DNA from: a virus | DNA: 64,000 nucleotides | Direction: 5' to 3' (one strand) | Virus record (IMG/VR): IMGVR_UViG_3300021087_001082 | Coordinates: 1-64,000 of that record | In this document: positions 1,306-62,019 of the stretch, one piece after another | Position numbering within the stretch: position 1 is the first letter of the stretch | How the letters are laid out: every line of letters starts with the position of its first letter | Program-made: the position numbers and the translations under genes | Notes under the pieces: model-generated | What the model was told of the DNA's origin: nothing | Seen by the model: only the letters and a program-made list of their open reading frames with translations | Database searches by the model: none

Positions 1306-1380
1306 TCCTCGGTAGCTCAGTGGTAGAGCAGATGACTGTTAATCATCGGGTCGCAGGTTCGAATCCCGCTCGGGGAGCCA
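1306..1380 (+). tRNA. tRNA-Asn (GUU)
   Basis: Complete class I cloverleaf: 7-bp acceptor with G-U pairs, D arm GCTC/GAGC, anticodon loop CTGTTAA giving GUU, TTCGAAT T-loop, discriminator G and encoded CCA. The T stem has one A-C mismatch. It is a canonical Asn tRNA and contrasts with the atypical GUU tRNA-like RNA at 25522-25614. Confidence 0.93.
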
Positions 1381-18276: not shown

Positions 18277-19488
18277 ATGTACACACAAGATGATGTTGAT
18301 CGATTAAGTGGCTCGGTCCATATTGAATACACACTTGCAAAGCTAGGAGCAGCAAAATTACGTAAAAAATTAACGAATCAAAAATACGTTAGTGCACTTG
18401 GGGCATTAACAGGCAACCAAGCAATGCAACAAGCAAAGGCTGGGTTAGATTCAGTTTACCTTTCGGGGTGGCAAGTAGCAGGCGATGCTAATGATAGTTT
18501 AGAGATGTATCCTGATCAATCTCTTTATGCAGTTAGCAGTGTACCCACAGTAGTTAAAAGAATTAATAATACATTTATTAGAGCAGATCAAATTCAATGG
18601 ATGGAGGGAAGAGGTGACCCAGGTTTTAATCATATTGATTATTTTTTGCCAATTATTGCTGATGCTGAGTCCGGTTTTGGCGGTGTTCTTAATACACATG
18701 AACTAGTGAAAGATTTAATCGAAGCAGGAGCAGCAGGTATTCATTTAGAAGATCAATTATCGTCTGCAAAGAAATGTGGACATATGGGAGGGAAGGTTTT
18801 AGTTCCAACTCAAGAGATGGTATCTAAATTAAAGGCTTCTCGATTAGCAGCAGACATAATGGGTGTTGATACAATTATTATTGCCCGTACTGATTCATTA
18901 GCCGGAGCATTATTAGTTACTGATGCTGACGCACATGATAATAGATTCATAACAGGTGATCGTACTGATGAAGGTTTCTTTAGAGTGGAAGCAGGAATGG
19001 ATCAAGCAGTTGCAAGGGGTATTTCATATGCTCCCTATTGTGATTTAATTTGGATGGAAACTGGTAATCCCGACATTGGTGAAATAACAGAATTTACAAA
19101 AGAAGTTCGTAAAGAGTTTCCTAATAAACAGTTTGCATATAACTGTTCACCATCTTTTAATTGGAAGAAGAAGTTATCTGATAGTGAAATAAGTTCCTTT
19201 AAAGATGAGCTCGGCGAGCTAGGTGTTACATATCAATTTATAACACTAGCAGGATTTCACTCATTGAATTATAGCATGTTTGAATTATCTGAGAACTATA
19301 GAGACAACGGAATGTCTGGTTATGTTGAATTACAAGAAAAAGAATTCGCAGCTCAGAAGAGAGGTTTTACAGCAGTGAAACATCAACGTGAAGTTGGCGC
19401 TAGTTATTTTGATGAAATTAATCAAATGTGTACTAATAGTACAGAACTTAGTTCATTAGAAGGATCAACAGAAAAAGAACAGTTCTAA
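18277..19488 (+). CDS. aceA: isocitrate lyase
   Basis: 403 residues. The signature KKCGHM (165-170, catalytic Cys167) defines true isocitrate lyase rather than PEP mutase or methylisocitrate lyase. Segments such as SALGALTGNQAMQQAKAG, SGWQVAGDAN, YPDQSLY, IADAESGFGG, AYNCSPSFNWKK and QFITLAGFHS match bacterial AceA almost residue for residue. Compared with E. coli AceA (434 aa) it lacks about 30 N-terminal residues. It cleaves isocitrate to glyoxylate and succinate. No malate synthase is in the window. AGAGGAGA precedes the ATG. The end abuts the next ORF. Confidence 0.92.
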   Translation: MYTQDDVDRLSGSVHIEYTLAKLGAAKLRKKLTNQKYVSALGALTGNQAMQQAKAGLDSVYLSGWQVAGDANDSLEMYPDQSLYAVSSVPTVVKRINNTFIRADQIQWMEGRGDPGFNHIDYFLPIIADAESGFGGVLNTHELVKDLIEAGAAGIHLEDQLSSAKKCGHMGGKVLVPTQEMVSKLKASRLAADIMGVDTIIIARTDSLAGALLVTDADAHDNRFITGDRTDEGFFRVEAGMDQAVARGISYAPYCDLIWMETGNPDIGEITEFTKEVRKEFPNKQFAYNCSPSFNWKKKLSDSEISSFKDELGELGVTYQFITLAGFHSLNYSMFELSENYRDNGMSGYVELQEKEFAAQKRGFTAVKHQREVGASYFDEINQMCTNSTELSSLEGSTEKEQF

Positions 19489-25521: not shown

Positions 25522-25614
25522 TGGCTCTGGGGGTTGGATTCGAACCAACACGCCCCTCTGCAAAAGGGACAATACGTAAACAACGCATCACGTCTACCGT
25601 TTCGTCACCCCAGA
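25522..25614 (-). tRNA. tRNA-like RNA, long variable arm, anticodon GUU
   Basis: 93 nt with CCA. Acceptor TCTGGGG / CCCCAGA is perfect; U8; D stem ACG / CGT with AAACGGTAGA loop, the layout of tRNA-Leu; anticodon stem ATGCG / CGTAT with one G-U and loop TTGTTTA, giving GUU (Asn) with unusual U37; long variable arm TCCCT-TTTGCAG-AGGGG; T arm GTTGG-TTCGAAT-CCAAC; discriminator G. A class II frame with an Asn anticodon is abnormal. An alternative fold using the variable hairpin as an anticodon arm (UGC) would need a 36-nt D region. Its 5' end overlaps the stop of the zinc-finger gene by 10 nt. Confidence 0.75.
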
Positions 25615-25832
25615 GTCCGTTCTTTTATAAGATGTCCCATTTGATGCTCTGCAAGCGCATCAAGGTCTGTATATGTTTCGTCGCATTCGAAGCAACTAGC
25701 AAATCCATTTTTCTTATAAAAGTTTTCTTCATCTATCATTTCTCTTGCTTGCCTTTGTAGCTCATTTATCACGTCGTGTATTCCATGTCCACCTGGGTAG
25801 ATCGGAAATACTTTATTGCTACTTTTAGGCAT
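25605..25832 (-). CDS. C2H2 zinc-finger protein, 75 aa
   Basis: The C-terminal half contains CFECDETYTDLDALAEHQMGH: Cys47, Cys50, His63 and His67 in the classical C-x2-C-x12-H-x3-H arrangement. The N-terminal half is a helix following a short Gly-Pro-rich start. The ATG overlaps the synthetase-like stop codon (TAATG), so the two are translated together, and the TGA lies in the first bases of the tRNA-like gene. May bind the tRNA-like RNA or DNA; inference only. Confidence 0.7.
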   Translation of the reverse strand: MPKSSNKVFPIYPGGHGIHDVINELQRQAREMIDEENFYKKNGFASCFECDETYTDLDALAEHQMGHLIKERTLG

Positions 25833-26704
25833 TACATAAGTCCTGCTCTTTTCATTCCACTAATAAGTCTCGTCATTCCTATTCCACCTCCAAACCTAGG
25901 TCTGAAGTCATGCCCCAGAAATTCATCAAGTTCTGCTTCTACTCTTTCTTCACCGAATAGATCATACAATAAACTGGCATACCCACCATCTGATATTGTA
26001 TGGAATTGTTTCCTCATTTCATCAACATCGGTTGCACGTTCAGCACTACCGATTGTTTCCATGCCACCAATAATAACATCGCATTTATTAGCAAGGCTGG
26101 CAGTTTTTTTCACATCTTGTTGACCAAGTTTCATGTTCCAGAAAGGACTTGTTGATTCCGGAAAATGGGTTAAAAAGAATACATCTCCATATTCTTGATA
26201 CATTTCTTCTTCATGGCCAGCATCTAATTCTTCACCAGTATATTTTGCTAATACACTTTGATACATGCCACCCGGAAAATCTAAATCTTTATATGGAGCT
26301 CTTCCATGATCACAATGAAATCCTAAATGAATTAATAAATCATTTTCCAGTTTTAATAATTCTTCAAAGTCGCCAGGAGCTTCAAATTCAAACATTGGGA
26401 AGATTAGTTCATGTCTTCCTTCTATTGAATTTTGTTCTTGCCTGTAACTTGTGCTAACACAATAACAACCTGGCAGATCAGGTTTAGTTAACAATTCATA
26501 TTCTAACCACATTTGCCCTGTTTGTGGTAATGGCCATATTTGACCATTATAATTATAGGTAGCAACTGTAGTGGGATCTTCGCATGCGGCGAGGATTGAT
26601 AATCTGCTTTGGGTATGTACTTCTTGAAAATTACGTGAGGAAAAAAAGGAACGGAGTTGTGAGACTACATTAGTGAAATCGGTTGGATCGATTAAACTAG
26701 TTAT
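25832..26704 (-). CDS. class II aminoacyl-tRNA-synthetase-like protein (Asx/Lys type core)
   Basis: 290 residues from an ATA at 26704 placed 4 nt after AGGAGGG; no ATG, GTG or TTG occurs before the ATG at 26512. The 64 residues upstream of that ATG look genuine: LRSFFSSRNFQEVHTQ is motif 1-like. Motif 2 is SYRQEQNSIEGRHELIFP (Arg88, Glu90), with PMFEFE following, and motif 3 is GGGIGMTRL (Arg279). There is no OB-fold anticodon-binding domain, as in EpmA (PoxA) or AsnA-type paralogues. It likely forms an aminoacyl-adenylate; acceptor unknown. First gene of the only minus-strand block. Confidence 0.8.
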   Translation of the reverse strand: MTSLIDPTDFTNVVSQLRSFFSSRNFQEVHTQSRLSILAACEDPTTVATYNYNGQIWPLPQTGQMWLEYELLTKPDLPGCYCVSTSYRQEQNSIEGRHELIFPMFEFEAPGDFEELLKLENDLLIHLGFHCDHGRAPYKDLDFPGGMYQSVLAKYTGEELDAGHEEEMYQEYGDVFFLTHFPESTSPFWNMKLGQQDVKKTASLANKCDVIIGGMETIGSAERATDVDEMRKQFHTISDGGYASLLYDLFGEERVEAELDEFLGHDFRPRFGGGIGMTRLISGMKRAGLM

Positions 26705-26759
26705 AATACCCTCCTTTGATAATTAAAATGTTAACCTCCTTTTATTTCACAAATCTTAA

Positions 26760-60208: not shown

Positions 60209-61216
60209 ATGAGTCTTTACATAGATCATAAGTATACAAATTTATTATCATCCCGCCTACAACGTTTTACAAGAAAATCTAGAGAGCTTTACAATTTCAG
60301 ATGTCCATTATGTGGAGATTCATCTAAGAATCAATTTAAAGCTAGAGGCTATCTTTTCAATAAAAAACAACAATTAATTTTTAAATGTCATAATTGTGGT
60401 TCTGGTGGACCTTTAAAAGTATTATTAGATAAAATTGATCCAACATTATCTAAGCAATATTCTTTTGAAAAATATAGAGAAGAAGCCGGTGACGATACTC
60501 ATCCAGAGAGAGAAGAAAAAGTACCAGTTTTTAGAAAACCTCAATTTAAAAAAGTGGGATGTCCTTCACTAAATGAACTAGGCGCAAATCATCCAGCTGT
60601 AAAGTTTTGTGATGTAAGAAGGATACCTAAAGTTCGTTATCATGATATGTATTTTGCAGATTGCTTTAAGAGTTGGGTTAGCAAATATGATATAGAACTC
60701 GCCGCACGATTAAGACCAGATGATCCCAGAATTATTATCCCATTTTTTGATAAAGATAGAAAGTTAATAGCCGCACAAGGAAGAAGTTTAGAAGATTCAA
60801 CTTTAAGATATTTCACCGTTAAGATTGATAAAACAGCTGGCAAACTTTTTGGATTAGATAGAAATGATCCGAAACAATTAACCTATATTGTTGAAGGCCC
60901 TATTGATAGTATGTTTCTTCCTAATGCTTTAGCTATGGCAGGAAGTGACATGGAAGATATGGGTCAATTTTATGCTCGAGACGTTACCTTTGTGTATGAT
61001 AATGAACGACGAAATAAAGAAATTGTAGACAAAATGCATAAAACAGTGAAGAAAGGTTTCGCAGTTTGCATCTGGCCTGACACAATTAAAGTTAAAGATA
61101 TTAATGATATGGTGCTAGATGGAATGGACATATTAGACATAGTTGATACCATAAATAAAAATACATTTCGTGGCTTACCTGCAAGGGTAAAATTGAATCA
61201 ATGGAAAAGAATATGA
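60209..61216 (+). CDS. 61: DNA primase (gp61)
   Basis: 335 residues from the ATG at 60209 (TTG at 60200 is less likely), matching T4 gp61 in length. Zinc-binding domain CPLC (Cys32, Cys35) and CHNC (Cys60, Cys63); TOPRIM-type YIVEGPIDSMF near 227 and FVYDNERRNKE. It synthesises RNA primers with gp41. Overlaps thyX by 16 nt. Confidence 0.93.
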   Translation: MSLYIDHKYTNLLSSRLQRFTRKSRELYNFRCPLCGDSSKNQFKARGYLFNKKQQLIFKCHNCGSGGPLKVLLDKIDPTLSKQYSFEKYREEAGDDTHPEREEKVPVFRKPQFKKVGCPSLNELGANHPAVKFCDVRRIPKVRYHDMYFADCFKSWVSKYDIELAARLRPDDPRIIIPFFDKDRKLIAAQGRSLEDSTLRYFTVKIDKTAGKLFGLDRNDPKQLTYIVEGPIDSMFLPNALAMAGSDMEDMGQFYARDVTFVYDNERRNKEIVDKMHKTVKKGFAVCIWPDTIKVKDINDMVLDGMDILDIVDTINKNTFRGLPARVKLNQWKRI

Positions 61217-62019
61217 GTGAAGAAGTGAAAGTCCATGAGCATGGATTTGTTAAATTATTAGATATAATGGGTGATGATGAAGAAGTAGAAGATGCGGCTC
61301 GAATAAGTTATGGACAGGGAACACGAAAGACTAGTCAGACAAGAAATCTTATTCGGTATCTGATGAGGCATGGTCATACATCACCTTTTGAGATGTGTGA
61401 AGTTAAGTTTCATATGAAGTTACCAATTTTTGTAATGAGACAAATAGTTCGGCATAGGACGGCGAACTTAAATGAGTATTCAGGACGATACTCGATTATG
61501 AGTAATGATTTTTACGTACCTCATGATAATGATATTCAAAAGCAATCAAAACAGAATAACCAAGGTAGGGGGGAAGAAATTGAAAGTAAAGGTTTGGTTA
61601 AATATGAATTTAACAGAATCTATGACAATGCTTCCTGGGCCTACAAAAATTTATTAGATCTTGATTTAGCTCGTGAGTTATCACGTTCAGTACTGCCTGT
61701 TGGCAATTATACAGAGGCTATCTGGAAAATAGATTTACATAACTTTTTTAAGTTTTGTAAATTGAGAATGGATGGACACGCACAAAAAGAAGTTAGAGAT
61801 TATGCAGTTGCCATGTACGGCATGGTAAAACCAAAATTTCCCCTTTGTTGTGAGGCATTTGAAGATTATGTTCAAAATGCGGTTTCATTTTCTCAAAGAG
61901 AATTAAATATTATTAGAGACAATTTAAATGGTAGTTGGGTAATGTCAAAGTACGGATTATCAGAGCGAGAATCAACGGAATTTTTAGAAAAGCTGAAAAC
62001 GATAGAAGGGGAAGAATAG
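61201..62019 (+). CDS. thyX: flavin-dependent thymidylate synthase ThyX
   Basis: 272 residues from 61201 (ATG at 61213 also possible). ThyX motif RHRTANLNEYSGRY (84-97) differs from the usual RHRTAS by an Asn in place of the first Ser. SPFEMCEVKFHMKLPIFVMRQ and NFFKFCKLRMDGHAQKEVRDYA are further landmarks. It converts dUMP to dTMP using FAD, NADPH and methylenetetrahydrofolate; dUMP comes from dUTPase (34918). Confidence 0.94.
   Translation: MEKNMSEEVKVHEHGFVKLLDIMGDDEEVEDAARISYGQGTRKTSQTRNLIRYLMRHGHTSPFEMCEVKFHMKLPIFVMRQIVRHRTANLNEYSGRYSIMSNDFYVPHDNDIQKQSKQNNQGRGEEIESKGLVKYEFNRIYDNASWAYKNLLDLDLARELSRSVLPVGNYTEAIWKIDLHNFFKFCKLRMDGHAQKEVRDYAVAMYGMVKPKFPLCCEAFEDYVQNAVSFSQRELNIIRDNLNGSWVMSKYGLSERESTEFLEKLKTIEGEE

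Follow-up and report, generated by a model that had tools for sequence, protein, structure and literature searches.

Asparaginyl-tRNA synthetase (AsnRS) or a non-discriminating AspRS reads G34-U35-U/C36 together with G73, and the bacterial GatCAB reads the U1-A72 pair. In the anticodon loop, U33, a general rule among elongator tRNAs, gives the U-turn and A37 carries t6A, both of which ready the anticodon for the ribosome. Archaeal asparagine synthetase A (AsnA-type) and EpmA/GenX are truncated class IIb paralogues of such synthetases that act independently of tRNA, and we know of no obligate tRNA partner for either of them. tRNA can also serve as a metabolic carrier, as Glu-tRNA for tetrapyrroles and as tRNA-Gly for peptidoglycan bridges, the latter with a relaxed decoding apparatus. 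In the part of a cyanophage report that deals with it, P-SSM2 and P-SSM7, two phages from Prochlorococcus NATL1A, are the only ones credited with a 'tRNA ligase' gene cluster, and this cluster is not connected to the single tRNA reported in the 252-kb genome of P-SSM2, which belongs to the pair discussed here (PMC3037559). A full-text search, which left subscription papers and preprints largely uncovered, gave no account of the tRNA–enzyme pair or of the pathway proposed below.

Here we analyzed a stretch of 64,000 nucleotides (the window), positions 1 to 64,000 of a virus record of 76,819 bases (IMGVR_UViG_3300021087_001082). An earlier note, made from the letters alone, had described a Leu-like class II tRNA scaffold with a GUU anticodon; it missed the partner enzyme next door, whose presence changes the meaning of the tRNA finding. 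The features are as follows:

25522..25614, minus strand: class II tRNA-Asn(GUU) with a Leu-like D arm, G73 and an encoded CCA (ARAGORN, Rfam, our own covariance model and covariation)
25579..25581, minus strand: anticodon GUU in the loop UUGUUUA (25577-25583), with U37 replacing A37 (sequence and conservation)
25550..25571, minus strand: long variable arm of 22 nt (5-39 nt among relatives)
25605..25832, minus strand: ORF of 75 aa between enzyme and tRNA, its stop codon inside the tRNA 5' end
25832..26704, minus strand: mini-AsnRS, an AsnRS-type catalytic core of 290 aa (profiles, alignment and predicted structure)
26709..26716, minus strand: Shine-Dalgarno-like AAGGAGGG of the mini-AsnRS gene (sequence)
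1306..1380, plus strand: a normal class I tRNA-Asn(GUU) of this phage, which has A37, outside the module and given for contrast only

The scaffold is a real and complete tRNA. ARAGORN calls tRNA-Asn(gtt) at 25522-25614 on the minus strand (the earlier note gave no strand), the Rfam tRNA model RF00005 reaches 41.6 bits with a gathering score of 29, finding the tRNA fold with neither an intron nor a Leu or Ser tRNA of another anticodon, and our own covariance model gives 86.6 bits. A scan over the complete window had passed the tRNA by, presumably owing to its speed filters. Every tRNA part is intact, including G18-G19 and CCA: the acceptor stem is UCUGGGG/CCCCAGA, the D arm (ACG/CGU) has the GAAA..GGUAGA pattern of tRNA-Leu, the anticodon arm is AUGCG-UUGUUUA-CGUAU with U33 present, and the T arm is GUUGG-UUCGAAU-CCAAC. 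In single-sequence folding it folds better than its shuffles (z -2.9). The GUU, U37 and G73 are as described before. With bacterial tRNA-Asn the phage tRNA shares G34, U35 and U36, G73 and U1-A72, yet it is a class II tRNA on a Leu body, with a 22-nt arm and U37 in place of the short class I variable loop and A37, and its relatives are often without U33. With tRNA-Leu it shares the D-arm sequence and the long variable arm, but it has G73 and not A73, and GUU and not NAG or YAA. The suggestion of an altered identity is borne out, in that a Leu-type body has gained the Asn-type GUU, G73 and U1-A72 and has kept them across many phages.

Among 42 aligned homologous tRNAs, 99.3% of the cells are paired and compensatory double changes are found in 18 of the 20 pairs, and with the same sequences slid registers and shuffled controls score far below the true tRNA register. 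Since pairing and covariation are high and no slid register comes close, the tRNA fold is under selection; a chance tRNA-like sequence is ruled out by the covariation. The variable hairpin had also been read as a second anticodon loop with UGC. This is a coincidence, as the arm varies from 5 to 39 nt among 88 distinct tRNAs and its loop is unconserved, and the alternative fold with this hairpin as the anticodon arm is ruled out by the same lack of conservation among relatives.

These 88 distinct tRNAs come from protein-anchored loci and hence were not selected by anticodon. All of them carry G34 and U35, and position 36 is U in 86 and C in two; G73 is found in 88/88 and U1-A72 in 87/88. Position 33, by comparison, is U in only 65 of the 88 (74%; absent in 26%), and A37 is kept in just eight (9%), the others having U (69) or G (11) there. 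U33 is present in all 95 other tRNAs of the same loci, and about 14 changes at position 33 are needed along the phage part of the enzyme tree. The retention of the anticodon triplet while the ribosome-preparing positions 33 and 37 are relaxed makes the earlier idea of a non-decoding RNA plausible, although decoding can still be envisaged because the window tRNA and 74% of the distinct tRNAs do have U33; the accompanying idea of a decoy found no support. The GUC (Asp type) anticodon occurs only in L046:3868-3963 and L310, with U1-A72 and G73 kept, as would be expected if AspRS charged these tRNAs and GatCAB then acted on them. In one locus (L115, after 4828) the tRNA consists of two acceptor strands only (TCCGGGGTCCCCCGGAGCCA), reflecting either a deletion or the loss of a hairpin during assembly.

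The 75-aa ORF and the mini-AsnRS gene lie directly upstream of the tRNA on the same strand, with most of the surrounding genes on the opposite strand. The enzyme belongs to the class II D/K/N synthetase family (Pfam tRNA-synt_2, 4e-13; phrog_29758, 2e-66). Alignment with cyanophage proteins places its start upstream of the first ATG (26512), a start at which would cost motif 1, and judging from the sequence the start codon is probably AUA (or AUU) at 26702-26704, behind AAGGAGG. Because of this probable non-AUG start, annotation pipelines will truncate the gene. Close relatives have TTG, CTG or ATG at this position. The 75-aa ORF contains a C2H2-like zinc finger (under the Pfam cut-off) and the motif IPIYxxGxGIHDxIxELQRQA, and in 16 of 80 loci a related small ORF occupies this position between the two genes.

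The AlphaFold model of mini-AsnRS (pLDDT 90, pTM 0.90) has its best structural matches in AsnRS catalytic domains, with Z 27 and 2.2 Å over 250 residues, followed by AspRS, archaeal asparagine synthetase A and EpmA (the latter two with Z 23-24). Motif 2 (R88/E90) and motif 3 (GGGIGxTR with R279), which mark a class II enzyme, are invariant in phages and bacteria, and residue 68 is the Glu of AsnRS instead of the Lys found in the aligned AspRS. The predicted enzyme shares with AsnRS the class IIb catalytic fold, both motifs and this Asn-type active-site Glu, but the model aligns with human AsnRS residues 230-530 only, so that the N-terminal OB anticodon-binding domain is absent. The window protein reaches 30.2 bits against a cut-off of 414 for asparagine--tRNA ligase (NF003037) and 13.2 against 389 for archaeal asparagine synthetase A; EpmA/GenX gives no match to it and 19.5-20.8 bits against 286.9 with the bacterial relatives. 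Being below every curated NCBIfam cut-off, the enzyme family therefore falls outside AsnRS, AspRS, asparagine synthetase A and EpmA. Like archaeal asparagine synthetase A and EpmA/GenX it is a stand-alone core of ~290 aa; unlike them it is linked to pyrimidine genes. The mini-AsnRS proteins are also very acidic, with a mean net charge of -19.

Protein-anchored scans of viral contigs gave 80 loci and then 80 more, with some contigs recurring, and 158 loci were examined. The tRNA lies just downstream of the enzyme gene in 141 of them; seven of the 17 loci without it end within 225 nt, so that in the testable set the tRNA stands beside 141 of 151 enzyme copies, with ~7% lacking it. A scan of viral contigs by the tRNA pattern only, in which proteins were ignored, gave 117 new loci, five of them with no more than 67 nt of upstream sequence, and in 112 of the 112 testable loci the enzyme gene precedes the tRNA by 7-219 nt, on the same strand. 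As all of these carry the enzyme, this type of tRNA was never seen without it, and hitchhiking or an att-site tRNA is ruled out for the same reason. At the level of sequence, these scans show that the tRNA and mini-AsnRS constitute a conserved and tightly linked two-gene phage module. In P-SSM7, P-SSM2 and P-SSM5 the 'tRNA ligase' homologue adjoins a tRNA-Asn(GUU) of 85-86 nt. The annotation of the P-SSM2 tRNA (AY939844.2, 164094-164179) seems to be shifted by ~2 kb, its real place being at ~162083-162168, beside the 'tRNA ligase'. The giant phages LR756501 (735 kb) and LR756508 (484 kb) encode homologues 45-47% identical to the P-SSM7 protein; no such tRNA was found within ~6 kb of them, and a scan seeded with one of these two homologues gave no matches.

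A scan of bacterial and archaeal genomes gave 125 relatives of the enzyme, of which 80 were kept, mostly 50-60% identical. The carriers are Patescibacteria, Saprospiraceae/Aureispira, Flavobacteria, alphaproteobacterial symbionts, one chlamydia and Pasteurella atlantica (a complete genome). No such tRNA was found near the enzyme in the bacterial loci, apart from a few phage-looking contigs, and in whole-genome searches of the carriers the top covariance-model matches that were typed were ordinary tRNA-Leu genes. Genes for OPRT or OMPDC lie near mini-AsnRS in 24 of 76 bacterial loci and for DHOD in 18 of 76, and in Pasteurella the order is pyrD, mini-AsnRS, pyrF, pyrE. PyrB (aspartate carbamoyltransferase) is over the cut-off in none of 17 carrier genomes, several of which are MAGs or reduced genomes, against 14 of 14 controls; PyrC is over it in 0/17 (controls 11/14), as tested with dihydroorotase TIGR00857, the dimeric type TIGR00856 being outside this test; and CarB is over it in one of the 17 (controls 14/14). 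PyrF (OMP decarboxylase) is present in 14/17. Within one order (198 genomes, eight with mini-AsnRS), a PyrB match is missing in 8/8 carriers and in 16 of the 190 others (Fisher p = 1.4e-8, uncorrected for kinship). The presence of mini-AsnRS thus complements PyrB loss, as would fit a pyrimidine substitute. In the order of Pasteurella only one of 119 genomes has the enzyme, hence no contrast is possible there. A simple replacement of canonical AsnRS was also considered and rejected: as 8/17 carriers also hold an AsnRS over the cut-off, mini-AsnRS is not simply their AsnRS.

In phages, pyrimidine genes accompany the pair in some loci. One of them (L073) has DHOD, mini-AsnRS, the tRNA and PyrE on one strand, another (L016) has PyrF, PEPCK, an HAD phosphatase, PyrE, mini-AsnRS and the tRNA in this order, and about a dozen more loci have PyrE or PyrF close to the pair. 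DHOD, PyrF and PEPCK of these modules are backed by domain searches, and the best profile matches of the small phage PyrE are orotate phosphoribosyltransferases. In 50,697 annotated phage records, a collection that under-samples such marine phages, the module PyrE has no matches and the module PyrF has five. A complement of PyrE, PyrF and DHOD in every phage was looked for and not found; most carry the pair only and would rely on the host's later pyrimidine enzymes. Taken as a whole, the mini-AsnRS module and its link to pyrimidine synthesis are well supported.

The question that is raised from these data is what a truncated AsnRS can do beside pyrimidine genes. Of the atoms that form the six-membered ring of dihydroorotate, asparagine already has five (N1, C6, C5, C4 and N3), and only C2 is missing. 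We suggest an asparagine-dependent bypass to (dihydro)orotate, in which the phage tRNA would be a dedicated, non-translational donor or carrier of asparagine; judged from sequence and gene context, we would give this explanation nearly an even chance. A narrower version, which we put forward more tentatively, is tRNA-dependent pyrimidine synthesis, in which the truncated AsnRS would make dihydroorotate from Asn-tRNA on a tRNA withdrawn from translation, bypassing carbamoyl phosphate, aspartate transcarbamylase and dihydroorotase. Both the chemistry of mini-AsnRS and the exact role of the tRNA are what we infer from predicted structure and context, with the enzyme standing in for the carbamoyl-phosphate steps. 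The alpha-carboxyl of asparagine would be activated as Asn-AMP or Asn-tRNA and its alpha-amine would react with CO2/bicarbonate to give a carbamate; the side-chain amide would then attack the carbamate carbonyl, closing the ring and freeing the alpha-carboxylate, so that the net reaction would be Asn, bicarbonate and activation to dihydroorotate. The phage tRNA would be charged via G34-U35-U/C36, G73 and U1-A72, either by the host (AsnRS, or a non-discriminating AspRS and GatCAB) or by mini-AsnRS itself, and would hand its asparagine to mini-AsnRS. The loss of U33 and A37 would hold this metabolic Asn-tRNA off the ribosome without competition with translation, and a tRNA-borne supply may matter most where hosts make asparagine only on tRNA. 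Like the CarAB-PyrB-PyrC route, the proposed one would supply (dihydro)orotate to DHOD, PyrE and PyrF, whereas the genes of the former are under the cut-off in the mini-AsnRS genomes, one CarB excepted. It would differ from the known metabolic uses of Glu-tRNA and tRNA-Gly in using Asn-tRNA, in serving pyrimidine synthesis and in its dedicated, phage-encoded pair.

Several points speak against this proposal. Most pair-bearing phages have no other pyrimidine gene, and against a use of tRNA stand the very acidic charge of mini-AsnRS and its lack of an anticodon domain. Because the bacterial homologues and ~7% of the phage copies have no adjacent special tRNA, the enzyme may not need one. One other option is an aid to translation: mini-AsnRS would charge its own tRNA-Asn and so keep Asn codons readable once the host tRNA-Asn runs short or is cleaved by anticodon nucleases, which the odd body and loop would withstand. 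The intact tRNA, its conserved anticodon and the known use of tRNAs by phages against tRNA-cutting defences (PMC11555353) are consistent with this, but 26% of the distinct tRNAs are without U33 and 91% without A37, the phage also encodes an ordinary tRNA-Asn, and the bacterial homologues cluster with pyrimidine genes in genomes without PyrB. A pure translation role is made less likely by positions 33 and 37 and by the pyrimidine context, and we consider it unlikely. The enzyme may also make pyrimidines from asparagine independently of tRNA, as its truncated relatives do without tRNA in their own reactions, with the phage tRNA only offsetting the enzyme's drain on the Asn or Asn-tRNA that translation needs. 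The bacterial and some phage copies without an adjacent tRNA, and the acidic protein, make this possible, yet a translation-bound tRNA should retain U33 and A37, and more tRNA does not mean more asparagine; we regard it as rather doubtful.

The remaining options explain less. The tRNA-like element could help to regulate or process the operon transcript, or could act as a decoy for the enzyme or for a host factor. In nearly every locus it closes the enzyme gene or operon on the 3' side, in keeping with such a role, but a processing signal needs no invariant G73, no U1-A72, no anticodon and no encoded CCA, which leaves this reading improbable. An orthogonal synthetase–tRNA pair, which would recode AAY codons or place an unusual residue, recalls PylRS-tRNAPyl in its dedicated enzyme and tRNA and in the odd tRNA body. 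However, the active site keeps AsnRS-type residues, AAY is far too common for recoding and the bacterial copies have no special tRNA, and we hold such a pair to be very improbable. If the asparagine-dependent bypass is true, there is a second way to the pyrimidine ring in Patescibacteria, Bacteroidota, intracellular Proteobacteria and abundant marine phages, which would explain genomes with pyrD, pyrE and pyrF but without the first three steps; the phage tRNA would then clearly exemplify a viral tRNA that serves metabolism and not decoding. As P-SSM2 and P-SSM7 carry the pair and were isolated on Prochlorococcus NATL1A, this idea is directly testable.

Other metabolic genes were seen around the module. 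PEP carboxykinase genes lie beside mini-AsnRS in a phage (L016:1891-3111) and, by sequence resemblance, in five bacterial loci (e.g., L161:6384-7964), and possibly feed oxaloacetate/Asp or CO2. Argininosuccinate-lyase-like genes are found next to mini-AsnRS in at least four bacterial loci, including L097:2648-3934 and L165:3-1376. Another link to pyrimidine nucleotides is a gene that is ThyX-like by sequence, directly after mini-AsnRS in two loci (L332 and L333). The window itself has a ThyX-like gene at 61207-61842 (tblastn 6e-13) and an isocitrate lyase gene at 18277-19488 (Pfam ICL, 2e-97).
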